Source: a virus
Virus record (IMG/VR): IMGVR_UViG_3300049855_000196
Location: 1-45,337 of that record
Direction: 5' to 3' (one strand)
Length of the DNA stretch: 45,337 bases
In this document: piece by piece, positions 10,540 through 26,923 of the stretch
How the letters are laid out: every line of letters begins with the position of its first letter
Position numbering within the stretch: position 1 is the stretch's first letter
Program-made: the position numbers and the translations under genes
Notes under the pieces: generated by a model
Seen by the model: the letters and a program-made list of their open reading frames with translations, nothing else
What the model was told of the DNA's origin: nothing
Databases searched by the model: none

Positions 10540-10886
10540 GTTCATTAAAAATTGGAACTGATTACGATTTAGTTATCGAAAACAATAACCTCGTTTTGAT
10601 TGGCGGGCGTGATGAGATCGCTCAAGTCCTTCGAAACGAATTAGCTTTTTTCTATGGCGAATGGTTTTTAGATACGCGAAAAGGGATCGACTACTTCGGG
10701 GATATTTTAATTAAGAATCCCGATCCCGCAAAAATCGACGCGATCTTTAAGAATAAAATTTTATCTTCACCGGGAGTCATTGAACTGCTAAAATTTAATC
10801 TAGAGCTAGAAAATAGAAATTTACGCGTAACTTTCGAAGCAAGTACGATTGACGGAATTATTTCGTTTGATGAGGAACTTTTATGA
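10536..10886 (+). CDS. Baseplate wedge protein, gpW / gp25-like
   Basis: The 116-residue protein carries the family core DEIAQVLRNELAFFYGEWFLDTRKGIDYF, with the helix-loop and aromatic FFYGEWFLD typical of T4 gp25, P2 gpW and DUF2634. The ending KFNLELENRNLRVTFEASTIDGI matches the C-terminal strand pair. These proteins initiate sheath assembly at the baseplate wedge. The order gp25-like, gpJ-like, gpI-like is the universal one. ATGA overlaps join it to both neighbours. Confidence 0.85.
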   Translation: MSSLKIGTDYDLVIENNNLVLIGGRDEIAQVLRNELAFFYGEWFLDTRKGIDYFGDILIKNPDPAKIDAIFKNKILSSPGVIELLKFNLELENRNLRVTFEASTIDGIISFDEELL

Positions 10887-12355
10887 CCTATGGGATAACG
10901 CCGCAAGGCTTTAAAGCTAAAAGATTAGCGGATATAAACGACGAAATCGATTCTAGTTTAAAAGCTATTTTCGGCGACTCTATAAACCTTTTACCTTCGG
11001 GAGTTTTGGGCCAATTAAAGGGAGTTTTTTCCGAACGTGAATCCCTCTTATGGGAACTAGCCGAAGCGGTTTATCAGTCCCAGTATCCGACGCAAGCTAG
11101 TGACGTGACTTTAGATAACGTCGTTTCGATCACGGGGATTACTAGAAATCCAGGCGTAAAATCGAAGGCGACACTTCATTTTCATGGCGACGTGGGAACC
11201 ATTATCCCGGTCGGAAGCATTTTTTCGGTTCTTAACTCTCCGACTTCAAGATTCATTTTAGGAAATGATATTACACTTGCGGCGGGAGTCGATGCGGTTC
11301 AAAAAATAACATTCGGAAGCGTTCCGGATGCGGGATCATTTAAAATTAAATATAGAAATGAAACGACTGCGCTCATCGCTTATAATGCGACGGCGCTTGA
11401 TGTACAAAACGCCCTTAATGCCCTCAATGGTTTATCGGCCGTAGTTGTTACGGGAGATTTTACCGCGGGATTCACTATTACTTTTACGGGCGCGGACGGG
11501 GAACGATTCCAAAAACAAATCGAAATTACAAACAATCTTTTAACTTTAGTAAGTGTCGCCGTAGTCGCGACGCCTTCGGATTTAACTATCGGGGTTCCTA
11601 ATGCGATCGCTTTGATCGACGCGGAATTTATTGGCGCGACTTCCGCCCCCGCTTATTCTCTTACAGTAATTCAAAATCCGATTTCCGGTTTAAATACCGT
11701 TACAAATCCACTTGACGCCGTTGTCGGTCGAGATATCGAGAGTGATGCGGACTTAAAGGCCCGTCGCGCCGAGTCCCTCGCGCGCGCGGGCGCGGGCACG
11801 CTTACGGCTTTGATCTCAAGGCTTGCCGATTTAGACGGGGTAAACGCCGTCGTGGGATTTGAAAATATTACTTTTTTAACTGATATCGACGGACGACCTC
11901 CAAAGAGTTTTGAAATGGTCGTCGATGGGGGACTCGACGCGGATATCGCCCAAGATATTTGGGAAAATAAACCCGCGGGGATCGAAACTTTCGGAAGCGA
12001 AACGGAATCAATAACCGACTCGCAAGGCTTCCCACAAAATGTAAAATTCTCCCGTCCGACGGACTTAAATATTTATGTAGAAATGGATTTGACGACCGAT
12101 CCCGCACGCTTCCCAGTGAACGGGGCGACGCAAGCGCGGGACGCGATTATAGCCTTCGGGAACGCGCTAGGAATTGGTGCGGACGTAATCGTCATCCCTC
12201 AATTAGTATGCGCTTTAAATTCAATCCCTGGGATTTTAGATATTGACGTTAGAATCGGGATCGCTCCGGCCCCTACATTAGATAACAATATTCCCGTGGA
12301 TGCGGACGAAATTTCGCGATGGGATACAAGTAGAACGGTGATAAATCTAATATGA
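10883..12355 (+). CDS. Baseplate J-like wedge protein with an inserted beta domain
   Basis: The 490-residue protein begins in the gpJ style (ITPQGFKAKRLADINDEIDSSLKAIFG). Residues ~95-135 show a normal J segment (HFHGDVGTIIPVGSIF), and the conserved core resumes with NPLDAVVGRDIESDADLKARRAESLARAGAGTLTAL near 275-310. Between them, about residues 138-228, sits an extra beta-sandwich-like domain (KITFGSVPDAGSFKIKYRNE, IAYNATALDVQNALNAL, GFTITFTGADGE). This explains why the protein is ~100 residues longer than many relatives. Wedge proteins of this class link baseplate and tail fibres. Confidence 0.82.
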   Translation: MTYGITPQGFKAKRLADINDEIDSSLKAIFGDSINLLPSGVLGQLKGVFSERESLLWELAEAVYQSQYPTQASDVTLDNVVSITGITRNPGVKSKATLHFHGDVGTIIPVGSIFSVLNSPTSRFILGNDITLAAGVDAVQKITFGSVPDAGSFKIKYRNETTALIAYNATALDVQNALNALNGLSAVVVTGDFTAGFTITFTGADGERFQKQIEITNNLLTLVSVAVVATPSDLTIGVPNAIALIDAEFIGATSAPAYSLTVIQNPISGLNTVTNPLDAVVGRDIESDADLKARRAESLARAGAGTLTALISRLADLDGVNAVVGFENITFLTDIDGRPPKSFEMVVDGGLDADIAQDIWENKPAGIETFGSETESITDSQGFPQNVKFSRPTDLNIYVEMDLTTDPARFPVNGATQARDAIIAFGNALGIGADVIVIPQLVCALNSIPGILDIDVRIGIAPAPTLDNNIPVDADEISRWDTSRTVINLI

Positions 12356-13005
12356 TAAATATTATTTCGGATCACATTCAGGCGGCGCGCGATAGGCTAA
12401 TCACTCAATACAAAGACGCGCCGAATTTGATTGCGATATTAGACTCTCTTACGACTCAAATTCAAGATTTAGAAAACGCTTATCACTCTTTATTTCTCGG
12501 GCGTTGGATCGAAAACGCGGAAGGTTTAGTCCTCGACGATTTTGGAACTATCGTAGGCCAAGCGCGCGAAGGCTTCGACGACGATTTTTATAAAATTCTT
12601 TTATATGTGAAGATCGGGGAAAATATTTCCCAAGGTGAAACGGAGCGCGTGATTTCAATTTATAAAATTATCACGCGCGCGACTCGCGTAATGCTCGGCG
12701 AACGGTATCCGGCCGGAGTGGATTTACTTTCAAATGGGACGATCAATCCGATTACTGCGCAGTTTATCATGAATAGATTGCAAAGAGTCGTCGGGGCGGG
12801 GATTCGCGTCGATCATATCGGACACTTTCATCCGACAACGCCTTTCGGTTTTTTAGGTGCGCCGGATGCGGCCGGATTTAACGTCGGGGAATGGGCTTAC
12901 TTATACAATACATCGCCATTTTTCTCGTTTAAAAATCCTAATCGGGCGGATATTTCCGGCTTCGGGACTTTAAGCGATCATGTTTATGGTGGGAAATTTA
13001 TATGA
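12352..13005 (+). CDS. Baseplate protein gpI-like, DUF2612
   Basis: The 217-residue protein matches DUF2612. Its N terminus is RDRLITQYKDAPNLIAILDSLTTQIQDLENAYHSLFLGRWIENAEGLVLDDFGTIVGQAREGFDDDFYKILLYVKI, followed by a less conserved region and a C-terminal aromatic/glycine stretch (FGFLGAPDAAGFNVGEW). This family replaces gpI after gpJ and connects wedge to tail fibres. Overlap with the J gene is 4 nt. It marks the end of the conserved baseplate block; what follows is host-range and lysis accessory sequence. Confidence 0.78.
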   Translation: MINIISDHIQAARDRLITQYKDAPNLIAILDSLTTQIQDLENAYHSLFLGRWIENAEGLVLDDFGTIVGQAREGFDDDFYKILLYVKIGENISQGETERVISIYKIITRATRVMLGERYPAGVDLLSNGTINPITAQFIMNRLQRVVGAGIRVDHIGHFHPTTPFGFLGAPDAAGFNVGEWAYLYNTSPFFSFKNPNRADISGFGTLSDHVYGGKFI

Positions 13006-13039: not shown

Positions 13040-13651
13040 ATGACTGCACCTGTACAAATACCTACATGGGCGACGGACGGCGGCGCTTCGATTACCGATC
13101 CGGGCGCAACAAAACAAGGAATCGGATGGATCGTCGAAATTCCCCCTCATGAATATTTCAATTGGTGGCAAAATCTCGTAGGCCAATGGATCGTATATTT
13201 GAATACTGAATTAGCGGCGGTTCAAGCCCTCCAAGGTATTTACGACGCCATAGTCGGAACGGGTGGAACTCATGCGGATTTAAACGCCGTGGTCGCCGCG
13301 ATGGGGGTTACGCTCCCAAATCAGGACGTAAAAGTTTTCGTTAAATCGCCGTTGACGGTTATCGCGACTCAAGTTTTAAGCAAAGAGGGAATGGATATCG
13401 AATTTCATCCAAAGGCTTTTATCGCCAAGGGCCTTACGGTCGTAACGGGAATTCAAATCACCGCAAAGAGAGTAAAAATCAAAGGCGGACGATTTATAAA
13501 TTTCAATGAAGTGGGCGGCGAAGGTATTGAATTGACCGCTAACGGAAAAAATTGTCATATATTGAATAACACTTTTTCAAATTGCACGGATTCGGTAACG
13601 GACGGCGGTGCGAATAATGTTTTAATCGGAAATATTGAAGAGGTAGCATAA
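13040..13651 (+). CDS. Short tail fibre-like protein with beta-helix segment
   Basis: This 203-residue protein starts PVQIPTWATDGGASITDPGATKQGIGWIVEIPPHEYFNWWQNLVGQWIVYLN. The PxxYFNWWQNLV segment is common at the N terminus of phage tail fibres and attaches to the baseplate. The second half looks like a right-handed beta-helix (VKIKGGRFINFNEVGGEGIELTANGKNCHILNNTFSNCTDSVTDGGANNVLIGN), as in pectate lyase-like fibres. It has no signal peptide, unlike the next fibre-like gene. An AAGGGG ribosome binding site is present. It overlaps the next gene by 1 nt. Confidence 0.68.
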   Translation: MTAPVQIPTWATDGGASITDPGATKQGIGWIVEIPPHEYFNWWQNLVGQWIVYLNTELAAVQALQGIYDAIVGTGGTHADLNAVVAAMGVTLPNQDVKVFVKSPLTVIATQVLSKEGMDIEFHPKAFIAKGLTVVTGIQITAKRVKIKGGRFINFNEVGGEGIELTANGKNCHILNNTFSNCTDSVTDGGANNVLIGNIEEVA

Positions 13652-15873
13652 TGAGAAATTTAATTTTAATCCTTTTATCTTTTTTAACCGTGACGGCGTA
13701 TTCCGCCGCACCTTTTAAAGTTCCAAACGATCAAGTCACTTTCGGAAGTGGTTCCACTCCGACGGTAAAAACTATCGAAATGAACGCCGGGCTTGGCGCT
13801 TCAAATCCAAAAATTCAAAGTGCGAACTCCGGAACGAGTGTCGAGATTACAAAGCCCACAAAAATAAAAGGCGCGACAACTTCCGAAGGCGATTTAACTA
13901 TCGGTGACGGAACGGCGGTAAATAGAAAAATGACAGTGAATCGCGGCGGATCTAATCCCTATTTGAAATGGGATGAGGCGACGGCGGCTTGGGTTTTTTC
14001 TAACAACGGCGCACTAGAAAAAAAATTAGGAAGTGGATCGGGTTCGGGCGGCGAAGGTGGAACTAACCTTCTACAAAATCCGTCATTCGAGGACGCGGGT
14101 TCGCCGGTTTTAAATTGGACGAATTCAGGCGGAACTTTCACGCAAGGAACTTATACAAATGGCCTAGAAAACGATTTAAAATACGGGACGTTTGTTTCGA
14201 CAACTTCGGCGCAATACGTTCAATCGGATTTAACAACTTGGCCGGATATGATTCCGGGCGGCGGACAATATAAAATAAAATATAACGGCGGAAGCGGTAA
14301 TTTTAAGTTACAAGTTTTAGACGGAAGTTCGAATCTATTGGCCGAAAAAGTTTTAGTAAATTCTACGGCGTGGATTGAATTAGATCCGGGATCTTTTTTC
14401 GCTCCGGCCCCAGGCGTTCAAGTTCGTTTAAGAATTGTTTCAACGGGCGCGGGCACTTTAAATTTTGACAAAGCCTATACCGGATCTAACTTAAATATTT
14501 CTGTATTTCAAAAATATTTCGGGCCAGAAATTAGTTATACTCCAACTTTTACAAGTTTTGGAACTGTCGTTTCACCTACTATTACTTATCAGCAAGTAGG
14601 CGGGTTTTATATAATCAAAGGTGAATTTACTCAAGGGACTCCGGTCGCTTCGGAATTTAGAATGAGTTTACCCGGATCTTCGGTAATTAAATCCGGAACC
14701 GTCCCGAATCAAATCTTTGGGGAATTTACTTTCGAACAAGTTACCGGAACGTCAAATAATTATTTTATGTGTGGTAACGCGGGGGATGCTTATTTAAAAT
14801 TTTGCGTTCACGGCGCGGCTAGTGCTTACGACGCAATTTCCGCCACTGGGCCAATGCCTTCGGCGGGCGGAAAATATAAATTTTATGCGACGGTTCCGAT
14901 TCAAGGTTTAGGCGGAAATTTTGAGGACGCTCAAACACCGAAATCAGCGGACTGGATGATTGATGCCAATATCGGCGGGGCGAATCCGGCGACTTCAATC
15001 TCATCTACATATGTAATTTGGGAAAATGCTTCGCTCGATATGGTTATAAATCCAGGTTCGGCGGACGTACAAATCCCATGTAGTTCGACTAACGTGGCGA
15101 CCTCGACGACTTGTTCGGTCGGGAGTGAACAAATCGGCGTGACCTTCACAAATCCCGAAACTGGATATTATGAAGTATGCGGCGAAATGGGATTAGATTT
15201 GTCTAATACTTATGTGACAAATCAATGGGTCGAAACTAACGACTCGAATACGGGAATAATCCAAGAGGGGAAATCCCGTGGCGGTATGTTTACCGGGGCG
15301 ACAAACGTAAGAGTAAACCTAAACACTTGCGGAATTTTCTACTTTGCGGATATCAAAAAAAGGGCGTTGCGATTAGCTTACGAGGCTTCAAATACCGCGG
15401 GAGTTTTAATCCTCGATCGCGACACGGCCAAAGGCCAACAAGACGCCCATATCACTGTTAAAAAATTATCTAATTCAAGCCCGCGCGCGATTTTAACCGG
15501 GGATACCGTAACTTCTAAAGGAATAAATAAACCCGAAACTTTAACTTTTAGTTTCGGAACTACAAACGTAAACACGGCTTGTACTACTTCACCTTGTTTT
15601 TTAGATCAAGGAACTGGAACCGCGATAACCAATATCACTCGCGCGAGTACTGGAGATTATACAATAAATTTCGCGAAAACTTATTCTAAGCTATGGTGTT
15701 CGGGGGCCGGAACGGATGCGGGCGGTAACGATCAATGGATTCGCGGGTTCAATGGTGGGGTTCAAAGTAATAGAGTCGTAACTAATAGTAGTACGTTTAG
15801 ATTCGCTTGTATTCGCTATAACCTTGGCGCTCAGGATGACTGCTATGCGACTTTAACTTGCAACGGATACTAA
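13651..15873 (+). CDS. Large tail-fibre-like adhesin with Sec signal peptide
   Basis: The 740-residue protein begins with a clear Sec signal, a hydrophobic core LILILLSFLTVTA followed by YSA-A at about residue 19. Then come a fibre-like region (VTFGSGSTPTVKTIEM), a Gly/Ser linker near 130, and a jelly-roll segment opening NLLQNPSFEDAGSPVLNW, as in carbohydrate-binding modules. Two or three more beta domains follow. The distal part contains paired cysteines (PCSSTNVATSTTC, CTTSPC, DDCYATLTC), consistent with disulfides outside the cytoplasm. A phage virion fibre normally folds in the cytoplasm, so export is odd. It could be a surface adhesin or exclusion protein rather than a virion part. Confidence 0.72.
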   Translation: MRNLILILLSFLTVTAYSAAPFKVPNDQVTFGSGSTPTVKTIEMNAGLGASNPKIQSANSGTSVEITKPTKIKGATTSEGDLTIGDGTAVNRKMTVNRGGSNPYLKWDEATAAWVFSNNGALEKKLGSGSGSGGEGGTNLLQNPSFEDAGSPVLNWTNSGGTFTQGTYTNGLENDLKYGTFVSTTSAQYVQSDLTTWPDMIPGGGQYKIKYNGGSGNFKLQVLDGSSNLLAEKVLVNSTAWIELDPGSFFAPAPGVQVRLRIVSTGAGTLNFDKAYTGSNLNISVFQKYFGPEISYTPTFTSFGTVVSPTITYQQVGGFYIIKGEFTQGTPVASEFRMSLPGSSVIKSGTVPNQIFGEFTFEQVTGTSNNYFMCGNAGDAYLKFCVHGAASAYDAISATGPMPSAGGKYKFYATVPIQGLGGNFEDAQTPKSADWMIDANIGGANPATSISSTYVIWENASLDMVINPGSADVQIPCSSTNVATSTTCSVGSEQIGVTFTNPETGYYEVCGEMGLDLSNTYVTNQWVETNDSNTGIIQEGKSRGGMFTGATNVRVNLNTCGIFYFADIKKRALRLAYEASNTAGVLILDRDTAKGQQDAHITVKKLSNSSPRAILTGDTVTSKGINKPETLTFSFGTTNVNTACTTSPCFLDQGTGTAITNITRASTGDYTINFAKTYSKLWCSGAGTDAGGNDQWIRGFNGGVQSNRVVTNSSTFRFACIRYNLGAQDDCYATLTCNGY

Positions 15874-15882
15874 GGGGATTTT

Positions 15883-16590
15883 ATGAAATTATTTTTATTA
15901 AGTTTTTTATTTTTATTTAACTGTTATGCGGAAAATTGGCAACGCCATTCGGTGATTAAAGCCGGAGGCGTCGAGGGTTTTTCCTTTGAAAAAGATTGTC
16001 TCAAATACGGGGAAAAGTGTTACGAGGTATCGGATAAACCCGCTAAGATTTTCAGCGAAGTGGACGTCCAGATCGATGACAAATCGAAGCCAAAATATTC
16101 TAAATCGCAAGTAAATCAATGCGGTGAATATTGCGAAGTTCTTTTTAAAGATTTGAAATGCGACGATGAATTAGAATCGCCTATTTTCAATAAAGATTTG
16201 AAACAAATTTATTGCTCTAAATTTATCGGCTTCGATAAAAAACTAGAAAAACAAATGGCCGTCGATTCGGTTAAAGTCGCGGACTATGACAAAGAGCGCG
16301 ACGACTTAAGCAAGGAAAAAGGAAAAGAAGCGACTATACAAATGGCGCTTAAACGAATGGATTGCGGGCGTAGAGTGATCGCGCTTTTACTTGCGCGTAA
16401 TTCGGTAAAAGGTTTAACCACTATTCAAGTCGGGCAATTGAATCAAGCTTATGCGGGAATTAAATCATTACTTGAATCGGGTTCAATCACTACGGCCAAA
16501 GAACAAATTTCGCTAGTAACTCCGGACGGCGTGGCCATTACTTCCCAAGATAAAACGGCCCTTTTAGAAGAGGCGACGAAATGCGAATAG
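15883..16590 (+). CDS. Exported cysteine-rich protein
   Basis: The 235-residue protein has an N-terminal Sec signal (LFLLSFLFLFNCYA-ENW, cleavage near residue 16). The mature part carries ten or so cysteines, several closely paired (DCLKYGEKC, QCGEYCEV, KCDDE, YCSKF, MDCGRR, TKCE), suggesting a disulfide-bonded periplasmic protein. A charged helical stretch spans about residues 120-160. I recognise no family. It sits 9 nt after the large exported fibre-like gene, so it may be a partner, chaperone or tip protein for it. Its end overlaps a 29-codon membrane protein gene by 10 nt. Confidence 0.65.
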   Translation: MKLFLLSFLFLFNCYAENWQRHSVIKAGGVEGFSFEKDCLKYGEKCYEVSDKPAKIFSEVDVQIDDKSKPKYSKSQVNQCGEYCEVLFKDLKCDDELESPIFNKDLKQIYCSKFIGFDKKLEKQMAVDSVKVADYDKERDDLSKEKGKEATIQMALKRMDCGRRVIALLLARNSVKGLTTIQVGQLNQAYAGIKSLLESGSITTAKEQISLVTPDGVAITSQDKTALLEEATKCE

Positions 16591-16670
16591 TAGGAATAAT
16601 TTTAGTCGTGATTTCGACCGCAATCGTATGCGTGGCCGGATACTGTTTATATAAAATCGCGGGGTATTGA
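16581..16670 (+). CDS. 29-residue single-pass membrane protein
   Basis: A short frame starts ATG at 16581 with AGAGG 7 nt upstream. The product is almost entirely one membrane helix (IVGIILVVISTAIVCVAGYCLY) with a short basic end. It overlaps the upstream exported protein and its stop directly touches the XhlA-like gene, so it is translationally coupled to both. Its place beside lysis genes suggests a holin helper or antiholin, which is inference from size and context only. Confidence 0.5.
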   Translation: MRIVGIILVVISTAIVCVAGYCLYKIAGY

Positions 16671-16868
16671 ATGACTAGAGAAGATGCGGCCCTAGGGAAC
16701 GAGCGCGAATGGCGAAAATTTTTAATGAGTGAGATTAAAGATTTAAGGCATGAAGTCGCTCAAATAAATATTACTGTGACGACTTTAAAAATTAAGATAG
16801 GATTAGCTAGTTCATTTTTTGGATTTTTGGCCGGAGCATTAGCGACGGTTATTAGTAAAAAACTATAA
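16671..16868 (+). CDS. XhlA-like holin-associated membrane protein
   Basis: The 65-residue protein has the layout of the haemolysin XhlA family: a charged N-terminal helix (REWRKFLMSEIKDLRHEVAQINITVTTLKIKIG) predicted as coiled coil, followed by one C-terminal membrane helix (ASSFFGFLAGALATVI) and a short KKL end. XhlA-type proteins act with a holin or endolysin to permeabilise the membrane at lysis. The amidase lies 1.9 kb downstream in the same operon. Confidence 0.7.
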   Translation: MTREDAALGNEREWRKFLMSEIKDLRHEVAQINITVTTLKIKIGLASSFFGFLAGALATVISKKL

Positions 16869-16879
16869 GGGAGAATTTT

Positions 16880-17215
16880 ATGAAAAGTATCTTGTTATTG
16901 GCGGCTTTATTTTGTGAATTGTTAAACACGGGCGACAAAGTAGGCCATGAAAAATGGCCTAGCCGTTGGTTAAGTGTGACGGCGCTTTTTGATGAACTTT
17001 TAGGTATGCAAGGTTTTTCCCTTGCCGAAGCTAAGTCATGGTTAGCGACTCACACGGATGAAGAAAAGAAAAAAGTTCTAGATTTCATGCAAGAAAAATT
17101 TGATATTCAGGACGATAAACTAGAATTATTACTTGAAAAAGGTTTAATTCTTTTAGGCGAACACGTCGATCTAATCGAAAAAGATATCGCGTTTGTTAAG
17201 GCGCTTAAAGCTTAA
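16880..17215 (+). CDS. Hypothetical helical protein in lysis region
   Basis: This 111-residue protein is unrecognised. The first ~15 residues (SILLLAALFCELLN) are mildly hydrophobic but do not form a convincing signal peptide. The rest is charged and helical (DEEKKKVLDFMQEKFDIQDDKLELLLEKGLILLGEHVDLIEKDIAFVKALK). Some phage holin-region proteins have this make-up. An AGGGAG ribosome binding site is seen. The stop TAA shares its last base with the next start, so the genes are coupled. Confidence 0.55.
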   Translation: MKSILLLAALFCELLNTGDKVGHEKWPSRWLSVTALFDELLGMQGFSLAEAKSWLATHTDEEKKKVLDFMQEKFDIQDDKLELLLEKGLILLGEHVDLIEKDIAFVKALKA

Positions 17216-17391
17216 TGAAAATTAAGTGGTCGTCGTGGACGATTCTTTTTAATTTAATTTTACTCGGCCTGGGGGTTTTCGCCCCTAGGCTTAATAACGA
17301 ATCACGCACGATTCTTATTACAAATGGGATCGCGGGGATTGGCCTTCGCGCTAAAACCAAGGAAGCGTTATGGACGAAAAAAGAACCTTAG
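17215..17391 (+). CDS. Small membrane protein, holin candidate
   Basis: A 58-codon frame begins in the stop of the previous gene (TAATG). The product starts with basic residues (KIKWSSW), then a hydrophobic helix TILFNLILLGLGVFA, a short polar turn with NNESR, a second moderately hydrophobic helix TILITNGIAGIGL, and a basic C terminus (RAKTKEALWTKKEP). Two helices with a charged tail and small size fit class II holins, but also many other small membrane proteins. It overlaps the metalloprotease-like gene by 22 nt. Confidence 0.5.
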   Translation: MKIKWSSWTILFNLILLGLGVFAPRLNNESRTILITNGIAGIGLRAKTKEALWTKKEP

Positions 17392-17864
17392 TCGTAATTA
17401 ACCAATATCAGAATTTCAATAATCAAGAATATCAAAAACTTTTAGCCGCAAAATCGGCAATCGAAACGATTGTAAATCATAGACTTTTCCGCGAAGAGGT
17501 TTTAGCCGCTGAATTCGGCGAAACTAATGGCAAGTCAAACGAACAAATTCTTCAAATGATTTTGGAAGGGACGGAAATTTTATCTCCCGAACAAGATTAT
17601 GAAATCGACGTCTCTATAATAGTTTACTATTCATTTAAAAAAGTAGTGGGCTATACTTATGCGAGTACGCCGATAACTTGGATCAATCGAAAATTTTTAT
17701 TTTCTTTTAAAGGTTTAAAATTCGCGAGTAATATGATGCATGAATACATGCATAAATTAGGATTCGGTCATGATTTTTGGCCGACAAAACGCCGCCCGTT
17801 TTCCGTTCCGTATCAAATGAATCGGATCATTGAAAAAGTAGGCGCTCAATTAGGGATTTTATGA
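17370..17864 (+). CDS. Metzincin-like zinc metalloprotease
   Basis: The 164-residue protein contains HEYMHKLGFGH at residues 124-134, an exact HExxHxxGxxH zinc site, with H124, H128 and H134 as ligands and E125 as catalytic base. A downstream SVPYQM near residue 150 could serve as the Met-turn. No signal peptide or membrane segment is visible, so release at lysis, activity in the cytoplasm, or packaging in virions are all possible. It is short for a metzincin, probably a minimal catalytic domain. It is coupled by overlap to a small membrane protein upstream and to a lipoprotein downstream. Confidence 0.7.
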   Translation: MDEKRTLVVINQYQNFNNQEYQKLLAAKSAIETIVNHRLFREEVLAAEFGETNGKSNEQILQMILEGTEILSPEQDYEIDVSIIVYYSFKKVVGYTYASTPITWINRKFLFSFKGLKFASNMMHEYMHKLGFGHDFWPTKRRPFSVPYQMNRIIEKVGAQLGIL

Positions 17865-18571
17865 AAAATTTATTTGTAATCATTCTTTTATTTTGGTTCG
17901 TTTCATGCAATGCCACGATGCAAAGCCAAGATTTAAAACCCGAAGTTTTTTATAAAAGAGATATGCTAATCACCGTCAACGGCTTAAGCGCCGAAGGGGC
18001 CTTAGTCGCTCCGGCTTCCGATAAATATGAAGTCCACGTCGAGGCGCGTGGCGACCTTGATTTATTTGTCATGCGTTCGTGCCATAAGGAAGAGTCGAAG
18101 GAAAAAGCATGGAACGTAAAAACGAAAGTTAAATCCGGTTTGTTCGGATGGGGTTCTAAAATTATCGATCAAAAAAGAGAAGTTAATTTCACTTTATATT
18201 TAAACGAACTTGAAAAAGAAGATTGCCCGATAGAACTTGGAGGCTTTGAGCAAAACGGCGGTCGCCATTCGTGGGGCGTGATTGATTTTGAATCGCCAAA
18301 ATATCAAGTCAAAGCGGCGGTTCTTTGTAATGGCAATGAAGTCCAGGCTAACGGGAATTTTATTTGTCAAAGCCGAAACGGACTTTTTCAAAAAATTAAA
18401 TTCGCTAGTCCGATGAAAGTCGCGCCTTCCAATTCATGCGGTTTTATCGGTGAAGGTTTAGAATTTGAAACAAAACTTCCGCTAGGATCTTGCGTCGCTA
18501 TTTTTAAAGGCGACAATAAACTTTTTAAATTTTCAGGAATCGGCTATGAAGCGATTCTAATTAGGGAGTAA
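17861..18571 (+). CDS. Phage-encoded lipoprotein
   Basis: The 236-residue protein starts with a lipoprotein signal: Lys-Asn, hydrophobic core LFVIILLFWFVS, then Cys16 in the lipobox FVSC. The mature part is predicted beta-rich with paired cysteines (MRSCHKEE, DCPIELGG, VLCNGNEVQANGNFICQ, NSCGFIGEG, GSCVAIF). It would be anchored in the periplasm or at the surface. Phage lipoproteins often block superinfection; a spanin role is unlikely because it is large and beta-rich. No known family is recognised. The gene overlaps the metalloprotease by 4 nt. Confidence 0.65.
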   Translation: MKNLFVIILLFWFVSCNATMQSQDLKPEVFYKRDMLITVNGLSAEGALVAPASDKYEVHVEARGDLDLFVMRSCHKEESKEKAWNVKTKVKSGLFGWGSKIIDQKREVNFTLYLNELEKEDCPIELGGFEQNGGRHSWGVIDFESPKYQVKAAVLCNGNEVQANGNFICQSRNGLFQKIKFASPMKVAPSNSCGFIGEGLEFETKLPLGSCVAIFKGDNKLFKFSGIGYEAILIRE

Positions 18572-18573
18572 TT

Positions 18574-18777
18574 ATGTGGGCCTCAATAATTAGCGCGTGT
18601 TTACCGACTCTTTTAAAAATTATCGGCGGTTACATCGAAAAAAGAATCGCCCAAAATAAAATGAAGGAAGAGGCGCGGGAAAAATTCCTTGCCTTCGCTC
18701 AGGCCGTTGCGCCGTCATTCGGCAATTCCGCAAAGCATCGCGAGGACGTTAAAACTCAAATCGAGGAACTTAAATGA
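18574..18777 (+). CDS. Small amphipathic protein before the endolysin
   Basis: This 67-residue protein has a hydrophobic N-terminal stretch (WASIISACLPTLLKIIGGYI) followed by a charged helix (EKRIAQNKMKEEAREKFLAFAQAVA). It directly precedes the amidase, with a 4-nt overlap. Position and shape suggest a holin-like or endolysin-release protein, although the hydrophobic part is short for a full membrane span. Together with the 29-, 58- and 65-residue genes it is one of four small lysis candidates. The family is not recognised. Confidence 0.55.
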   Translation: MWASIISACLPTLLKIIGGYIEKRIAQNKMKEEAREKFLAFAQAVAPSFGNSAKHREDVKTQIEELK

Positions 18778-19346
18778 AAGTCGCTTTAATCGTAGGGCAT
18801 ACCTCGACTTCAAAGGGCGCTAGGGCCACAAATGGCGTTTATGAATGGGATTACAATTCGCACATAGCCGAAGAGGTTAAAAAGGTTTTGCCGGACGTAG
18901 AGGTCGTTTTAAGACTTCATTGCGGGGGATCTTATTCCGCCCAGTGTTTAACTACGGCCACGCGCTGTAAGGAACTGGGAATCACGCACGCGATCGCCCT
19001 TCACTTTAATTCTAATGAAAAAATAATGGCCAAGGGATGCGAGGCCCTAACCGTTTCGGCGTGGGATTTGGCCGATAAAATTAGTAGTGCGCTAGTTCAC
19101 GATTTCGGAATTAAAAATCGAGGCGTGAAACTTCTCAAGGAAACGGATCGGGGCTACTATGAATTAAGGGCATTAAACGATTACGGAATTAAAGAGGCGG
19201 TGATTTTAGAACCTTTTTTCGGATCTTATTCCGATACAACGGAAAAGATTATCGAAGATGAAACTTTTTTAACTCCGGAAGGTCAAAGAAAATATATTGA
19301 TTCGCTTTGCGATTTTATAAGGGGCTTAAATGGAACCGACAAATAA
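18774..19346 (+). CDS. Endolysin, N-acetylmuramoyl-L-alanine amidase (Amidase_3)
   Basis: The 190-residue protein has the Amidase_3 fold signature: VALIVGHT with zinc ligand His9, YEWDYN with Glu24, ALHFNSN with His77, and LEPFFGSYSD with catalytic Glu146. It cleaves the bond between N-acetylmuramic acid and L-alanine in peptidoglycan. No signal peptide or cell-wall-binding domain is present, as usual for endolysins of Gram-negative hosts released by a holin. It overlaps its neighbours by 4 nt upstream and 17 nt downstream. Confidence 0.85.
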   Translation: MKVALIVGHTSTSKGARATNGVYEWDYNSHIAEEVKKVLPDVEVVLRLHCGGSYSAQCLTTATRCKELGITHAIALHFNSNEKIMAKGCEALTVSAWDLADKISSALVHDFGIKNRGVKLLKETDRGYYELRALNDYGIKEAVILEPFFGSYSDTTEKIIEDETFLTPEGQRKYIDSLCDFIRGLNGTDK

Positions 19347-19692
19347 AAAGAAAATTATTGTTACCGGATCGACCGCCTCAATGGAATTGATTTGTTGGGA
19401 AGAGGACGATTGTGGAAATCGCTCAATTTTCGACGCGACGGGATTCTCCCTTATGGAATTAGTTTATAAAAAGAATGACGGAACGCTTGTCACTTTGGGC
19501 GTGGGAACGGGTTTAACCGTTGTCGATATAAAAACACTAATAGTAAAAGCGGATTTGTCCGTTGCTCAAACGGACGTTTTAAAATCGAAGGCTTGGTTTA
19601 ATTTTGATTTAGAAGTCACGATCGGCGCGGAAAAATTTATTTTCGCTTCACGCGAGGAATGGTTCGTCGAAAAAGGAATACGTCAATCATGA
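19330..19692 (+). CDS. Hypothetical beta-rich protein, possibly fibre accessory
   Basis: The 120-residue protein is predicted mostly beta-strand (KKIIVTGSTASMELICWEEDD, then FSLMELVYKKNDGTLVTLG and WFNFDLEVTIGAEKFIFASREEWFVEKG). The layout resembles small Ig-like or BppU-N-like phage proteins that link fibres to baseplates. It lies between the endolysin and another beta protein upstream of two fibre-like genes. No signal peptide. The family link is weak and rests on secondary-structure impression. Confidence 0.5.
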   Translation: MEPTNKKKIIVTGSTASMELICWEEDDCGNRSIFDATGFSLMELVYKKNDGTLVTLGVGTGLTVVDIKTLIVKADLSVAQTDVLKSKAWFNFDLEVTIGAEKFIFASREEWFVEKGIRQS

Positions 19693-20096
19693 ACGAGTGC
19701 AAAACCATTTTAATTACTCATTCTAAAAAACAAGTTATGACCACGGCGAAAGTCGGGTTTACTATTATTCAGCGGAACCCATTAGTATCGAATGGGACGA
19801 AATTAAATCCCATTTTAATTACGGATTCACTTCCGCTTTTAGGCCAAGCCTTAGAACAAATTTACGTCCAGGGCGACACGGGGCCGGTGAATGATCCCAC
19901 TATTCCGGACGGGAACGAAAACGACGTCCTTTGGATTTTTGTTACAAGTACAGTAAACGGAATAAATTTCACTACTCAAGGCAACGTAATTTTAAGCCGC
20001 GAGTTTTATGGGATAACCGATTCAATGTTATGCCTTGGATGGGAAGTATCGACTCAAAAATGGATCGAACGAGGTCGCAATGAAATTACTGCTTAG
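19689..20096 (+). CDS. Hypothetical beta-rich protein upstream of fibre genes
   Basis: I start this 135-residue protein at ATG 19689, which overlaps the previous stop as ATGA; an upstream frame extension has no better start. It contains KVGFTIIQRNPLVSNGTKLNPILITDSLPLLGQALEQIYVQGDTGP and GINFTTQGNVILSREFYGITDSMLCLGWEVSTQKWIERG. The ending LGWEVSTQKWIERG resembles the closing phrase of fibre-associated proteins that describe a repeat strand. It overlaps the next gene by 17 nt. Function unknown, likely structural. Confidence 0.5.
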   Translation: MNECKTILITHSKKQVMTTAKVGFTIIQRNPLVSNGTKLNPILITDSLPLLGQALEQIYVQGDTGPVNDPTIPDGNENDVLWIFVTSTVNGINFTTQGNVILSREFYGITDSMLCLGWEVSTQKWIERGRNEITA

Positions 20097-21978
20097 TTTT
20101 TTTTTAATTTCTTTTAATCTTTTTGCATACTCGGGAATTTTTACCGATGATATTCATAATAAGTATTCGAAGTTACAACTTCCGAACTATTCTCTTTTAC
20201 CTGGAACCGTTGCGCAATTTAACCCCTTCACCGGAACCATTGAATCGGCTTCGACTTCGACCGTAGAACTTGCGGCGCTACAAGGCATAAACGGAAATAT
20301 TCAAGATCAAATAGATAATATTATCGGGGGCGGCGGCTTTGAACCTTCAATCACTCCGGGCACGACTCTACAATATTGGCGCGGTGATAAAACATTTCAA
20401 ACATTAAATACTAACGTCGTTCCGGATTTTTTAAATAAAAGATATGTGACCGACGCGGAAAAAACAAAACTCGCGAATTTAAGCGGGGTAAACACTGGGG
20501 ATCAAGATTTAAGTTCTTACGCGACTTCCGCCTCCGTTTCAAGCGCCTTGAGTTTAAAATATGACGCCTCAAATCCTAACGGCTATGAAACTCCCTCGCA
20601 GTTAAATGCACGCGATACGGCCAATAGATCAAGATCAAATCACACTGGGACTCAAACGGCTTCGACCATTTCGGATTTTAATGCTTCCGCTCAAACGGCC
20701 TTAAGCGCGTCACTTGCTTTAAAATATGACGCCTCAAATCCGGCGAATTATATTACGACCGCTTCGGTTTCAAGCGCCTTAAATTTAAAAGAGGACGTCG
20801 CTCCGGCTTATGTAAATTTTTATTTTTTATCGACTTATACTGGAACCCCGACGGGATCATATTCGCATCCATTTAACAATTTAACCACGGCAATTTCTAC
20901 GGCGTTCGCAAGCGGGGCCAATGCCCAAATTAAAATCTTAGATCGCGCCTATACTCTTCCTTCGACTCTTACCATAAATAATTATAATGCGAATTTGACG
21001 ATCGAAGGCGCGGGCGGTGCGAATGACTCGGTAAGTACGTCCGTAACCGGGGATATAATTATTAGCGGGACTTCGACTAGAATCCGTTTTAAAAATTTAA
21101 AACTTAATGGAAATTTAACATTAGACGGATGCGACGGGCGAATTTACACCGATAATTTTGAAGTAAACAATATTACTTTTTCAAACGCCTGGAAGCGGTG
21201 GTATGAATTTCATAAAACTTCAATTCTCGGGACGGTAACGATTGGCGGATCTCCCGCGTCGTCGCCACAAATTTCGACCTTTGATTTAAGAGGTTCGTCG
21301 ACCTGGGCGATAAATTCAAACGTCACGGTATTACATTATTTTCCATTGGCCTTAAATTCTATCACTCATTCGAATGGAAATTTATTTATTCGTGGGGGCG
21401 GGGGATTTACAAACGCGACGGGGATCACTTCGACCGCCAATACTCCGAACTTTTTTATCATTGACGGAACAAGTTTTTATCAGGGCGCGGGAGTTTATTC
21501 CCTTATAAACAAAACCGGAACCGCCGATTATTTTTTAGATGCGCCTAAAAGAAATTTCGCTTCCGACGTTTTAACCGGAAGTCGAATCGGCTACGGAATC
21601 AATTCGGCCGATCTTGGATATACCCCGACGACTTCCGGAGAATGGTTATCGCCTCCGACAAATATTCGTGGCGCGCTTGATTCAATCGCTAACGAATCGG
21701 TAAAAGATTTTGTGAACGTGACCGGATCAAGCTATTCGATCGTCGATAATGTTAAATATGTAAAAGTAAATTTTGCCGGAACTTCGACCGTCACGCTCCC
21801 AAGCGCGATCGGACGCAAAGGGAAATCTTTTCATATAAAAGTTTTAACCGCCAATGACGTAAATATCGCAACGGTATCCGGACAACTAATCGACGGCGCG
21901 GCTTCCCCAGCAATTTTAAACGGAATAAATAATTCGGCCATGCTTACAAGCGACGGCGCGAACTGGTTTTTAAATTAA
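20080..21978 (+). CDS. Tail-fibre-like adhesin with Sec signal peptide and beta-helix
   Basis: Start ATG at 20080 is chosen because GAGG lies just upstream and the product then opens with a textbook Sec signal (LLLSFFLISFNLFA-YSG, cleavage near residue 16). The 632-residue protein includes a fibre segment YWRGDKTFQTLN, then RYVTDAEKTKLANLSGVNTGDQDLSSY. Two copies of a SLKYDASNP-type unit flank SNHTGTQTAS. A pectate-lyase-like beta-helix follows around residues 270-450 (LTINNYNANLTIEGAGG, ITFSNAWKRWYEF), and the end is a KVNFAGTSTVTLPSA tip. This is the sequence style of phage tail fibres, yet with an export signal. Confidence 0.72.
   Translation: MKLLLSFFLISFNLFAYSGIFTDDIHNKYSKLQLPNYSLLPGTVAQFNPFTGTIESASTSTVELAALQGINGNIQDQIDNIIGGGGFEPSITPGTTLQYWRGDKTFQTLNTNVVPDFLNKRYVTDAEKTKLANLSGVNTGDQDLSSYATSASVSSALSLKYDASNPNGYETPSQLNARDTANRSRSNHTGTQTASTISDFNASAQTALSASLALKYDASNPANYITTASVSSALNLKEDVAPAYVNFYFLSTYTGTPTGSYSHPFNNLTTAISTAFASGANAQIKILDRAYTLPSTLTINNYNANLTIEGAGGANDSVSTSVTGDIIISGTSTRIRFKNLKLNGNLTLDGCDGRIYTDNFEVNNITFSNAWKRWYEFHKTSILGTVTIGGSPASSPQISTFDLRGSSTWAINSNVTVLHYFPLALNSITHSNGNLFIRGGGGFTNATGITSTANTPNFFIIDGTSFYQGAGVYSLINKTGTADYFLDAPKRNFASDVLTGSRIGYGINSADLGYTPTTSGEWLSPPTNIRGALDSIANESVKDFVNVTGSSYSIVDNVKYVKVNFAGTSTVTLPSAIGRKGKSFHIKVLTANDVNIATVSGQLIDGAASPAILNGINNSAMLTSDGANWFLN
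20553..20741 (+). repeat. Direct repeat inside the fibre gene
   Basis: A 24-bp identical sequence beginning TTTAAAATATGACGCC occurs at 20553-20576 and 20718-20741. The flanking GTTTCAAGCGCCTT also repeats at about 20536 and 20767. Both encode the S/A-L-K-Y-D-A-S-N-P unit of the fibre shaft. Such repeats allow the shaft to lengthen or shorten by recombination. Confidence 0.75.
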
Positions 21979-21987
21979 GGAATTTTT

Positions 21988-23814
21988 ATGAAGGTTTTTT
22001 TACTACTTTTATTTTTATCGACTAAACTTTTTGCGGGATTTGTTTACCCTCAAAACTATTCGACCTCGACGCTACAAAGTACGGGAAATGGTTTACTTTT
22101 AAATATTCAAGATTATGTTTCGGTTTTACCGGGGGTGAAAGGGGACTTCGACGATTTTATTCTTCCCGCAAGCGGCTTGGCGCTTTTAACTAAGGACACG
22201 GGGACGAATCTAAACGGAAGATTAAATTCCAAGTCTATAAATACTCAAATCACATCAAGCGATAAGGGCCTAATCACAAAATCTTTTTTGCACGTTGCGA
22301 GTACCTCGGGCGGTTACGTCGATGTAAAAGGAACCGCGGCGGGCGAACTTACAATCGCTTCCACTTCGGGCGTTGTCGCATTAGCATCTAAACAAGATTC
22401 ACAAATCGCGGCTTTAAATTCCATTGATTCAAAACTTACGACTGGAATTTCAGTATCGGGCGGCGCAACGGCGGCGCTTCAAACCACATTAAATACAAAC
22501 GTCGGAGCGCAAGCCGACGCCGCCGCAAGTTCCGACACGGGATCGTTTTCGATTATCTCATTCATTAAAAGGGGCATGCAAAACTGGACTACTCTTTTAG
22601 CGAGTATTCCGACACTCGGCCAAAAATTGATGAGCGGATCTTGGCCGGTGACAATCGCTTCCGATCAATCTGCTTTAAACGTAATGCTTCCGGATATATT
22701 TTTCACGGGGCAATCCGCTCAAACTGCGACGGTAAATAATATTTTAACCTCGACCGCGGGGGCGGCGGCTTCGGACGTCGCCGGATATCGTTCGGGTTCG
22801 GTTCAAGTTGTTTCAACGGGAACGGGCGGGACTTTCATTTTTGAAGGTTCAAACGATAATACAAACTTTCAAGCGATCACGGTGCAAAATCAAGGAACCG
22901 TAGTAGGATCTTCGATAAATACCGCGATCACCGCTTCGGCTTCACAACTTATTTATACCTTTGCGATCAATTATCGCTATGTGAGATTAAGAATTGCGAC
23001 CACTATTACGGGCGGTTCTATTCAAGCGTTTTCTAGATTTTCGCAAGCGCCGTATTCAAATACTGCAATGACCGTCAATCAAAGCACTGGGGCCAATTTA
23101 ATTATTTCGGGAACCGTTACGGCCACGGCTTCGGGAACCTATACGACCGACGCAATCGTAACAAACGGAACGGATATCGCTTCGGCGGCGGTAACAACTA
23201 CGGCGGCGGAAGCTACTCAAACGCAAGGGAATAAATCCGTGGTCGCCTTATTTTTAAACGTGACGGCGGTATCAGGAACGAATCCGACGGCCGATTGGAC
23301 TCTACAAGAATCGCCCGACTCGGGGACGACTTGGTTCGATACTTATATGTTTCCGCGCATGACCACGGCCGGAAATTATCAAACGCCTTTAATGCGTTTA
23401 TTTGGGAACCGTTATCGCTTAAATAGAACGGTCGGAGGGACTACGCCGTCGTTTACTCGGGCGGTGATTTCAAATAGAACCTCGGGCCTTGGGGCGAAGC
23501 TTATCCGTTCTTTTTATAACCGGACGATTGATCCAAATACTTTAAACTCTACGACTGCGACTTGGTTTATTGAAGGCGCTCGGGAATTTACGATTTACAC
23601 CGATTGCACGGCTTCGACTACTCCGGCGACTCTTACCCTTCAAATTTCGGATGACGGCGCTAAATGGGCGGATACGGCGCATATAATCACTACACAAAAC
23701 GGGACTTTAATGGTGAAAAATATTATCATGACGGCGCGTTTTGCCCGTTTAAAAACGACCACGGCCGGAACCGGGAATACTTTAAACTACGTTTCAATTT
23801 ATGGGGTGGATTGA
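21988..23814 (+). CDS. Tail-fibre-like adhesin with Sec signal and discoidin-like repeats
   Basis: The 608-residue protein begins with a Sec signal (KVFLLLLFLSTKLFA-GFV, cleavage near residue 16). A fibre-type region follows with the PVTIASDQSALNVMLPD phrase common in phage tail proteins. The rest holds three related beta-sandwich modules, each with an S-D/N-x-G-x-x-W-type strand and an R-Y/F-x-R-L strand: FEGSNDNTNFQAI with RYVRLRIATT, LQESPDSGTTWFD with RYRLNRTVGG, and LQISDDGAKWADT with ARFARLKTT. Such modules bind glycans. It follows the other exported fibre-like gene by 9 nt, with an AAGGAA ribosome binding site. Confidence 0.7.
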   Translation: MKVFLLLLFLSTKLFAGFVYPQNYSTSTLQSTGNGLLLNIQDYVSVLPGVKGDFDDFILPASGLALLTKDTGTNLNGRLNSKSINTQITSSDKGLITKSFLHVASTSGGYVDVKGTAAGELTIASTSGVVALASKQDSQIAALNSIDSKLTTGISVSGGATAALQTTLNTNVGAQADAAASSDTGSFSIISFIKRGMQNWTTLLASIPTLGQKLMSGSWPVTIASDQSALNVMLPDIFFTGQSAQTATVNNILTSTAGAAASDVAGYRSGSVQVVSTGTGGTFIFEGSNDNTNFQAITVQNQGTVVGSSINTAITASASQLIYTFAINYRYVRLRIATTITGGSIQAFSRFSQAPYSNTAMTVNQSTGANLIISGTVTATASGTYTTDAIVTNGTDIASAAVTTTAAEATQTQGNKSVVALFLNVTAVSGTNPTADWTLQESPDSGTTWFDTYMFPRMTTAGNYQTPLMRLFGNRYRLNRTVGGTTPSFTRAVISNRTSGLGAKLIRSFYNRTIDPNTLNSTTATWFIEGAREFTIYTDCTASTTPATLTLQISDDGAKWADTAHIITTQNGTLMVKNIIMTARFARLKTTTAGTGNTLNYVSIYGVD

Positions 23815-25736: not shown

Positions 25737-25892
25737 TCACCATTTCATTTTATAAAAATATTTCATATAAATTTTTTCTGCAATCAAAACTAAGAGGAAT
25801 AAAATTCCGACGATCGCAAGAATCCCAAGGGCGACTAAAAATTGCGCGAGCATAGCGCCCAGTTTTAATTTTATTCCGTCCATTATATTCAT
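25737..25892 (-). CDS. 51-residue membrane protein
   Basis: A short frame starts in an ATGA overlap with the methyltransferase stop, with GAGGGG about 8 nt upstream. It encodes a polar start (MDGIKLKLGAMLAQ), a strong membrane helix FLVALGILAIVGILFLLVLIA and a basic, aromatic end (EKIYMKYFYKMKW). It is translationally coupled to the methyltransferase. Function unknown. It has the size and topology of phage early proteins that disturb the host membrane, which is only a possibility. Confidence 0.58.
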   Translation of the reverse strand: MNIMDGIKLKLGAMLAQFLVALGILAIVGILFLLVLIAEKIYMKYFYKMKW

Positions 25893-26923
25893 AGCTTTTT
25901 CCCCTCCAAAATCATAATTCTATCGGCGATCATTTCTACGCACTGGGGAACTACTGCGTTCCCTAATTGTTTTATTCTTTGTCGTCGTTCACTTTCGACG
26001 AATTGATTTCCGTCCACCGCGGGGGAAATCCCATCATACTCTCGACGAATTCCGGATTCAGTCGTCCACCAATTACCGAAACGAGCGGCGGTTTTTGTCC
26101 TCCACCAGGATGAAACGTCCTCGGCGGAAGAGGTTGGCCAGAATCGCGACAAGTAGGCGTCGGGAGTGACAAAGCTACACTCCGAAGATTGCCCTTTTTT
26201 AGATCGTGTTCGTAGCTCTTTGATCCGATCGGCCCGGCCCCCTTCGCGTCCGACACTTGCGGCGTCGGTAAATTTTTCTGATATCTCGCGGCGTAGGTTA
26301 CTAGCGTTCTTTGCGATTGACTCTTCGCCTTGGGATCGTAAATCTTTGTCGGCCCCCGCGATCCGTCGTTCGCGTCCGGAGTCGGAAGATTCTCTTCGCC
26401 ACGCGATAATGAAGATTCGCTCCCGTAAATGGATTGCCCCGACGGAGCGAGCGGATATAATAGACCATTCAGCATTATACCCCATTTGATCGAGATCTTT
26501 GAGGACTCGGACAAGTCCGATATTGAGTAAATTTTTGACGTTTTCGATAAGAGCGTATCTTGGTTTAATTTCTCCGATGAGTCGGGCGAATTCGCCCCAT
26601 AATCCGGATCGTGTTCTATTACCTTGTTCATCTTCAAAGCCCCTTTTTATTCCCGCGATCGATATATCTTGGCAAGGAAATCCGCCGGAAATTAAATCTA
26701 TTTTTGTTTTTATGCTTTTTATTCCGTCGGTTAAAACGCCGTCAAAATAATGTAAATGGTTTACGTCGTCGAAGGCGTGAACTTTGGGCCAATGTTTATT
26801 TAAAACTTTTCGGGCGTGTTCGTCGAATTCACAAAACGCCGTCGCCTCGAATCCGCCGGAGCGTTCAAGTCCTAATTCGATTCCGCCTATTCCTGAAAAT
26901 AAAGACAAAGTTTTAAGTTTCAT
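25889..26923 (-). CDS. C5 cytosine-specific DNA methyltransferase
   Basis: The 344-residue protein has C5-methyltransferase motifs in order: motif I FSGIGGIELG (9-18), motif IV GGFPCQDIS with catalytic Cys84, motif VI ENVKNLL (127-133), motif VIII RERIFIIA (167-174) and motif X QLGNAVVPQ (319-327). It transfers methyl groups from S-adenosylmethionine to cytosine. No restriction partner is nearby, so protection of phage DNA against host restriction is the likely role. Residues ~178-318, the target recognition region, are overprinted by another conserved-looking frame. The start overlaps the polymerase stop by one base. Confidence 0.9.
   Translation of the reverse strand: MKLKTLSLFSGIGGIELGLERSGGFEATAFCEFDEHARKVLNKHWPKVHAFDDVNHLHYFDGVLTDGIKSIKTKIDLISGGFPCQDISIAGIKRGFEDEQGNRTRSGLWGEFARLIGEIKPRYALIENVKNLLNIGLVRVLKDLDQMGYNAEWSIISARSVGAIHLRERIFIIAWRRESSDSGRERRIAGADKDLRSQGEESIAKNASNLRREISEKFTDAASVGREGGRADRIKELRTRSKKGQSSECSFVTPDAYLSRFWPTSSAEDVSSWWRTKTAARFGNWWTTESGIRREYDGISPAVDGNQFVESERRQRIKQLGNAVVPQCVEMIADRIMILEGKKL
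25972..26637 (-). CDS. Second reading frame overprinting the methyltransferase recognition region
   Basis: A +1-frame open for 221 codons lies within the methyltransferase gene. Its last ~145 residues do not look like random shadow. Three LPTP units occur at regular spacing (NLPTPDAND, NLPTPQVSD, SLPTPTCRD), followed by GGRLNPEFVESMMGFPPRWTEI. These phrases are well known at the C terminus of many phage cytosine methylases. The same DNA in the main frame encodes the DGIS-type segment before motif X. So either an alternative methyltransferase C terminus is made by frameshift, or the second frame is a relic. The start at 26637 is arbitrary; coding support begins near 26415. Confidence 0.5.
   Translation of the reverse strand: MKMNKVIEHDPDYGANSPDSSEKLNQDTLLSKTSKIYSISDLSESSKISIKWGIMLNGLLYPLAPSGQSIYGSESSLSRGEENLPTPDANDGSRGPTKIYDPKAKSQSQRTLVTYAARYQKNLPTPQVSDAKGAGPIGSKSYEHDLKKGNLRSVALSLPTPTCRDSGQPLPPRTFHPGGGQKPPLVSVIGGRLNPEFVESMMGFPPRWTEINSSKVNDDKE

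Follow-up and report, generated by a model that had tools for sequence, protein, structure and literature searches.

The DNA analyzed here, an entire virus record 45,337 bases in length (the window), belongs to a contractile-tailed phage in which the gene directly after a short tail adaptor encodes a fibre opening with a Sec-type signal peptide. Export of this fibre, termed 13651 after its first position as are the other genes below, is predicted and well supported by its sequence and that of its relatives. We tentatively favor, at somewhat less than an even chance, that adaptor and fibre together make up a split, exported virion fibre, comprising a short cytoplasmic adaptor and a Sec-exported distal fibre.

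Gene layout of the window

Matches in the window to a head protein, sheath, tape measure, baseplate hub, baseplate J and tail protein I indicated a contractile-tailed phage. Further matches were obtained for a portal, a Mu F-like head protein, a terminase and the phage's own DNA polymerase A, primase and helicase. The fibre 13651 is encoded within the baseplate/tail genes, between the baseplate/adaptor genes and the lysis genes:

10883..12355, + strand: baseplate J-like protein, opening the conserved tail-tip block (phrog_6, E 1.6e-51)
12352..13005, + strand: tail protein I-like (phrog_6277/587/1160; 35-69% identity to 12 relatives)
13040..13651, + strand: tail adaptor without signal peptide (phrog_2282, E 8.8e-9, residues 10-55)
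13651..15873, + strand: mosaic fibre, predicted to be Sec-exported (signal peptide, synteny, alignment, model)
15883..16590, + strand: cysteine-paired partner, predicted to be exported, with a helical C-terminal half (signal, cysteine pattern, model)
17861..18571, + strand: lipoprotein, lipobox VSC followed by N (N-terminus)
18774..19346, + strand: amidase endolysin, marker of the lysis module (PF01520, E 1.5e-13; phrog_435, E 5.4e-26)
20080..21978, + strand: second signal-bearing fibre, one cysteine (phrog_2647, E 1.8e-6; ordinary phage shaft motifs)
21988..23814, + strand: third signal-bearing fibre (signal accepted by eye), one cysteine, C-terminal end homologous to an Arthrobacter phage virion structural protein

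Several features of the neighboring genes are recorded here in their own right. The baseplate J-like protein contains a small domain inserted at residues about 138-251, which is also present in a gene of Bdellovibrio phage phi1422 (30484-31899; 39% identity) and in the tail/sheath families phrog_10909 and phrog_2839. The gene at 17370-17864, which separates the genes for the partner and the lipoprotein, encodes an HExxHxxGxxH motif, which we take to be zincin-like, and gave a weak Reprolysin_3 match (E 0.098). Zincin-like versions occur in the related contigs L002 (11616-12212) and L014 (13779-14174 and 14175-14441), the latter with a signal peptide and with an in-frame stop interrupting the gene ahead of the motif. 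The lipoprotein likewise has a counterpart in L002 (12209-12931, ASC followed by S). A C5 cytosine DNA methylase gene (PF00145) lies on the minus strand at 25889-26923.

Signal peptides and start sites

The five ORFs that the earlier note had read as exported were confirmed at their coordinates, each opening with a Sec or lipoprotein signal: 13651 (MRNLILILLSFLTVTAYSAAP), 15883 (MKLFLLSFLFLFNCYAEN), 17861 (MKNLFVIILLFWFVSC, with the lipobox), 20080 (MKLLLSFFLISFNLFAYS) and 21988 (MKVFLLLLFLSTKLFAGF). Signals were called by a rule written for this analysis, combining charge, a hydrophobic stretch and a cleavage site or lipobox. In its original form the rule recognized 13651, 17861 and 20080 but neither of the other two, and also picked four further window ORFs, which were taken as false calls. 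The rule was loosened once, before the control counts, and the second version, used in all of them, called four of the five; 21988 was missed because of a lysine in its h-region and was accepted by eye. The amidase endolysin (18774-19346) has no signal peptide by this rule.

Shine-Dalgarno matches precede the starts of 13651 (GAGGT at 6 nt), 20080 (GAGGT at 4 nt), 21988 (AAGGA at 6 nt) and 15883 (AAGG at 7 nt), and none was found at the 17861 start. A start downstream of the hydrophobic segments, which the earlier note had named as fatal to its reading, was not borne out, as none of the five ORFs has a Shine-Dalgarno-backed internal start within its first 80 codons. Nor was a Shine-Dalgarno match present at 20035, the alternative TTG start that would lengthen the 20080 ORF.

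Conservation across the phage group

Most relatives were gathered through tail protein I, which is uninformative about the signal, and L034 through the adaptor. Four contigs had come up earlier, L002 and L003 as well as L014 (which also contains L042) and L017, the latter two through the N-domain of the signal-bearing fibre itself. Five of the 18 tail-protein loci were excluded: L004 and L053 were too short, L044 and L048 nearly duplicate L043 and L049, respectively, and L054 has no adaptor. L003 was counted although it is close to L002. On this basis, the gene directly after the ~200-residue adaptor encodes a fibre-like protein with a Sec-like signal in 15 of 15 distinct contigs, 14 of them by rule; the signal of L051 (MRLKTKILLGFQISILLTSGAMAAG) fell just below the hydropathy threshold of the rule and was accepted by eye. 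None of the 15 adaptors carries a signal. For comparison, the rule called 3 of 137 upstream ORFs from 13 of the 15 contigs, one of them convincing (L051 1242), and 5 of 136 ORFs of at least 300 residues in other viral loci, where two were accepted, L007 and the group member L034.

Throughout the 13 aligned signals the letters drift, and one column is alanine in 11 of 13 rows while the column two places on is glycine, alanine or serine in 13 of 13 (by eye), as expected of the -3 and -1 cleavage positions. The signal is followed by a conserved domain of ~115 residues and a glycine-rich linker, and the C-terminal half is mosaic. The N-domain and the jelly roll described below are conserved and the C-terminal ends diverge, as in receptor-binding proteins. 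Scanned over the collected viral loci, the N-domain profile matched this group only, including L034 and L047, which lay outside the alignment. The contig L049 encodes a second signal-bearing ORF (12035), counted in the cysteine tally only.

The adaptor is equally constant, with ~200 residues (198-214 in the relatives), a tail-fibre attachment N-domain and a short beta-helix-like end, and its TAA stop overlaps the ATG of 13651 (TAATG) in the window. The suggestion that 13040 could be the true virion fibre thus held for its tail-attachment N-domain (phrog_2282) but not for the rest, as it lacks a large distal part and therefore looks like an adaptor. Elsewhere the adaptor N-domain occurs within longer tail fibres, namely in Otagovirus phiPsa374 (491 residues) and L039 (at least 827 residues). 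Outside the group, none of six adaptor relatives has a signal-bearing fibre (the near-identical L035, L036 and L037, as well as L038, L039 and L040), and neither does L054, which has a weak 49-residue tail-protein match. Named phages gave no match to the fibres 13651, L043 or L046, plasmids none to 13651, and a viral scan with a single gpJ sequence no relative. In seven relatives, further signal-free fibre-like genes lie downstream, such as L041 15656 with Pfam tail-fibre repeats, the others being recognized by eye.

One viral contig outside the group, L007, encodes a 601-residue signal-bearing fibre-like protein (10754-12559), located 3' of a signal-free fibre and showing weak similarity (E 0.012) to gp68 of phage phi1422.

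The gene following the fibre, 15883, encodes a partner for which a signal was called in 9 of 9 relatives including the window, and which has 6 or 8 cysteines in all nine, four of them invariant. Its model (pLDDT 78.8) yielded no match in the PDB or viral library at E <= 0.001, and a second fold comparison gave mainly helical bundles, with a best Z of 7.0. Tail-fibre chaperones are often encoded in this position, and we regard the partner as a candidate fibre chaperone or fibre subunit.

Cysteine content

Past residue 25, the 15 signal-bearing fibres contain 136 cysteines in 8,628 residues (1.58%), three to four times the content of the other fibres examined: 17 in 3,381 (0.50%) for 11 hand-picked signal-free fibre-like ORFs of the same phages and 40 in 10,600 (0.38%) for 18 other viral fibres. 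The 133 upstream ORFs contain 113 in 33,580 (0.34%). A per-protein test against the comparison fibres gave p-values of 0.004 and 0.0002, pooled p-values overstating independence because the proteins are related. The fibre 13651 itself has 12 cysteines past residue 25. Leaving aside L046, L045, L047 and L003, whose fibre genes are cut off at contig ends, complete members of the fibre family have an even number in 10 of 12 cases, one of these being zero; the odd numbers are 5 in the second ORF of L049 and 13 in L051. Together, the cysteine excess of the 13651 fibres and the paired cysteines of the partners are what would be expected for folding in an oxidising compartment.

These data also bear on whether export takes place. 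Virion tail fibres normally fold in the cytoplasm, and this general knowledge would fit a hydrophobic N-terminus that anchors a normal cytoplasmic tail fibre, or a translation start further in. We consider such a lack of export very improbable, as the n-region stays charged, the h-region persists and small residues still precede the cleavage site despite the drift of the letters, the mature part is enriched in cysteine, and the internal starts have no Shine-Dalgarno sequence.

Domain organization and predicted fold

Along its sequence, 13651 is organized into the signal peptide, the conserved N-domain, the glycine-rich linker, a jelly roll, a variable shaft, a TNF-like tip and a cysteine-rich C-terminal end. 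An AlphaFold model based on 12 sequences reached a mean pLDDT of 55, so that the following fold matches concern the better-predicted parts. Residues ~134-283 match CBM4/CBM16-type jelly rolls with Z of about 13-14 in this modest-confidence model, as well as the corresponding module of the K2-2 and CBA120 phage tailspikes, and the jelly roll appears sugar-binding-like. The tip, residues 433-606, matches the C-terminal domain of the MAT protein Bd2734 of Bdellovibrio bacteriovorus (8okw_B; Z 14.9, rmsd 2.4, 143 of 152 residues, 15% identity). Among the matches listed from 985 aligned chains this was the top one, the next, tied in Z, concerning the jelly roll; the next TNF-like single-domain match to the tip among those listed was a Photorhabdus lectin with Z 11.7. 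The likeness to the mosaic adhesive trimer (MAT) proteins proposed in the earlier note is therefore strengthened, as Bd2734 is the best solved-structure match of the tip. Sequence profiles searched against PDB sequences, including one for the tip, gave no convincing solved relative. With regard to the previously assigned domain labels, the beta-helix is weak and confined to the adaptor (PF13229, E 0.0019, below the cut-off), and the jelly roll, like the TNF-like tip, derives from the modest-confidence model. No tail-attachment domain was recognized in 13651, and among 12 relatives scanned there was one match to phrog_521 'tail protein' (E 0.015).

Such a tip raises the alternative of a phage-encoded MAT-like adhesin that the infected predator would display or shed, and that would alter prey attachment or entry, mask receptors or exclude other phages. 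The architecture parallels that of MATs, with a signal peptide, a conserved N-domain of similar size and a variable tip; the best tip match and the glycan-binding-like jelly roll point the same way, and the signal-free fibre-like genes of the seven relatives could serve the virion. Yet the gene lies in the tail/lysis block and is probably expressed late, when display would be of little use. Moreover, a search limited to the tyrosine-integrase family found no match either in the window or in five relatives, and this speaks against a lasting conversion of the host by lysogeny. We regard the adhesin as a real but doubtful possibility.

The fibres 20080 and 21988

The earlier note had treated the three large fibres as alike, which did not hold: a signal conserved throughout the family and a cysteine signature are found in 13651 only, and 20080 and 21988 have one cysteine each. 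Homologues of 20080 in 12 viral loci and of 21988 in 8 showed no convincing signals; over the 20 viral loci with homologues of the two shafts the rule made two calls, both on the same sequence with a weak h-region. As far as seen, the predicted signals on 20080 and 21988 appear to be a feature of this window alone. The C-terminal 182 aligned residues of 21988-23814 are 45% identical to gp26 of Arthrobacter phage Sonali, which suggests fibre-module exchange between phages of different host phyla.

Bdellovibrio phages and the probable host

Looking for homologues among Bdellovibrionota and their phages, as proposed in the earlier note, gave a divided picture. The same arrangement was present, without detectable sequence similarity, in phi1422, an isolated Bdellovibrio myophage of the phiPLPE group according to the accessible part of its description (PMC3391216), and two scans of genome contigs with the fibre N-domain and with the tail protein found no relative and no host genome. 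In phi1422, which is listed as lytic, gp68 (JQ177062; 614 residues, annotated as hypothetical) directly follows the tail fibre gp67, has the N-terminus MKFMIAFIIALFSVTMATAQIKG and contains eight cysteines, gp67 containing none. Since profiles of the 13651 family detected no sequence similarity in gp68, it would be a second, independent case. The same part of PMC3391216 makes no statement on a signal peptide. Five other phiPLPE-group phages with other hosts had signals on none of 14 fibre-region genes, and a whole-genome scan of these five with the rule gave 15 calls, none on a gene annotated as tail fibre. Neither Bdellovibrio phage phi1402 nor the phi1422-like contig L074 has a signal-bearing fibre; the remaining loci from the phi1422 search comprise phi1422 itself (L071) and two that break off too early (L072, L073).

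The tail protein further matches phage-plasmids of Pigmentibacter ruber (Bdellovibrionota) at 26-30%, which carry no fibre of the 13651 type. As it also matches three Piscirickettsia plasmids and one Criblamydia plasmid, the plasmid clue to the host is weak alone. Taken with the MAT-like tip, phi1422 and the signal-bearing proteins that follow the adaptor on one of these plasmids, it points to Bdellovibrionota as the likely host of the phage group. The link to these bacteria drawn before is strengthened by the arrangement in phi1422 and the Bd2734 match, although phi1402 lacks the arrangement.

On one Pigmentibacter ruber plasmid, pGTC16762-3 (L056 15382-17115), two signal-bearing proteins directly follow the adaptor, of 254 residues (signal by eye) and 316 residues (by rule), with six cysteines each. 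These two other proteins would fit an alternative in which the products are released as decoys or aid lysis. As glycan-binding proteins of the periplasm, they would join the lipoprotein and the partner in opening the envelope or bdelloplast, or would coat debris and thereby spare progeny. The neighbors of 13651, comprising the exported partner, the lipoprotein, the zincin-like protein and the amidase, are in line with this idea. It does not account for the fibre architecture, the mosaic nature of the tips or the constant association with the adaptor, and we judge it unlikely.

A proposed split fibre, completed at lysis

In the split virion fibre that we favor, the receptor-binding fibre of these small contractile-tailed phages, probably of Bdellovibrionota, would be divided in two. 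The short cytoplasmic adaptor 13040 would sit on the baseplate, and the distal fibre 13651 would be translated from the overlapping start, passed through the inner membrane by Sec and freed of its signal. Within the oxidising periplasm it would trimerise and form disulfides, probably aided by the exported partner 15883. Once lysis sets the cytoplasmic tails free, the exported fibres would encounter them and, in a putative step, attach to the adaptor. Finished P22 and T4 spikes or fibres join particles in the test tube, so docking after lysis is possible.

This reading is favored mainly by the constant position next to the adaptor, the stop codon that overlaps the fibre start in the window, an adaptor without distal domain, the mosaic tips and the failure to find a tyrosine integrase, either in the window or among five relatives. 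The signal at this gene in all 15 contigs, the conserved N-domain and jelly roll, the cysteine excess, the even cysteine numbers of the partners and the arrangement of gp67 and gp68 in phi1422 also speak for it. Counting against it are the signal-free fibre genes of seven relatives as possible virion fibres, the MAT-like tip, given that MATs act on the host surface, the short adaptors without a signal-bearing fibre (L055, L038), the lack of such a fibre in phi1402 and L074, and an N-domain of 13651 in which a tail-attachment domain was not recognized. To our knowledge, no tailed phage exports its virion fibre through Sec.

More broadly, a lineage of contractile-tailed phages of predatory bacteria may make its receptor-binding fibres outside the cytoplasm, as Sec-exported, disulfide-bonded, MAT-like trimers that mature in the periplasm with a partner and are added at lysis, phi1422 having reached the same solution with a fibre in which no sequence similarity was detected. 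We put this forward as a conjecture, not quite as probable as its converse.

The cytoplasm is regarded as the site of tailed-phage virion assembly. A consistently export-tagged fibre would either break this rule at the final step or arm infected predators with viral adhesins, and either reading ties phage fibres to the MAT adhesins, the proposed prey recognisers in Bdellovibrio. As phi1422 is a named isolate and its gp68 is annotated only as hypothetical, the question is testable at the bench.

Comparison with known systems

The titles and opening lines of abstracts found in a mostly open-access literature mention no signal-bearing tail fibres, which is no proof of absence. Among reports available in part, two rumen Bacteroides phages have two and one signal peptides, not tied to fibres (PMC5723332), a gp38 protein is described without signal peptide (PMC12946066), and PMC8143477 and PMC9723563 name a signal-peptide method only.

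With phi1422 gp68, 13651 shares a signal, cysteines, a fibre-like character and a position 3' of a tail-fibre or adaptor gene, without sequence similarity. The gp137 protein of Otagovirus phiPsa374 shares the N-terminal attachment domain of the adaptor (36%, residues 1-76); unlike in 13040, the domain is part of a 491-residue fibre, for which no signal was called, and the fibre is not split. Sonali gp26, a virion structural protein (NC_048152) of a phage with a host of another phylum, shares only the C-terminal module of 21988.

The closest parallel is offered by the MATs of Bdellovibrio bacteriovorus, which, in the accessible part of their description, have a signal peptide, a conserved N-domain of ~130 residues, a modular fibre and a variable tip, TNF-like in some, and are trimeric and displayed on the predator surface (PMC10769870). 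Alike in both are the signal peptide, the conserved, beta-rich N-domain after it and the modular fibre with swapped tips; the N-domains, about 115 residues in 13651 and ~130 in the MATs as described there, are likened by plan and size. Unlike the MATs, 13651 belongs to the tail/lysis genes of a phage, where its neighbors are a tail adaptor and the cysteine-paired partner that is predicted to be exported as well.
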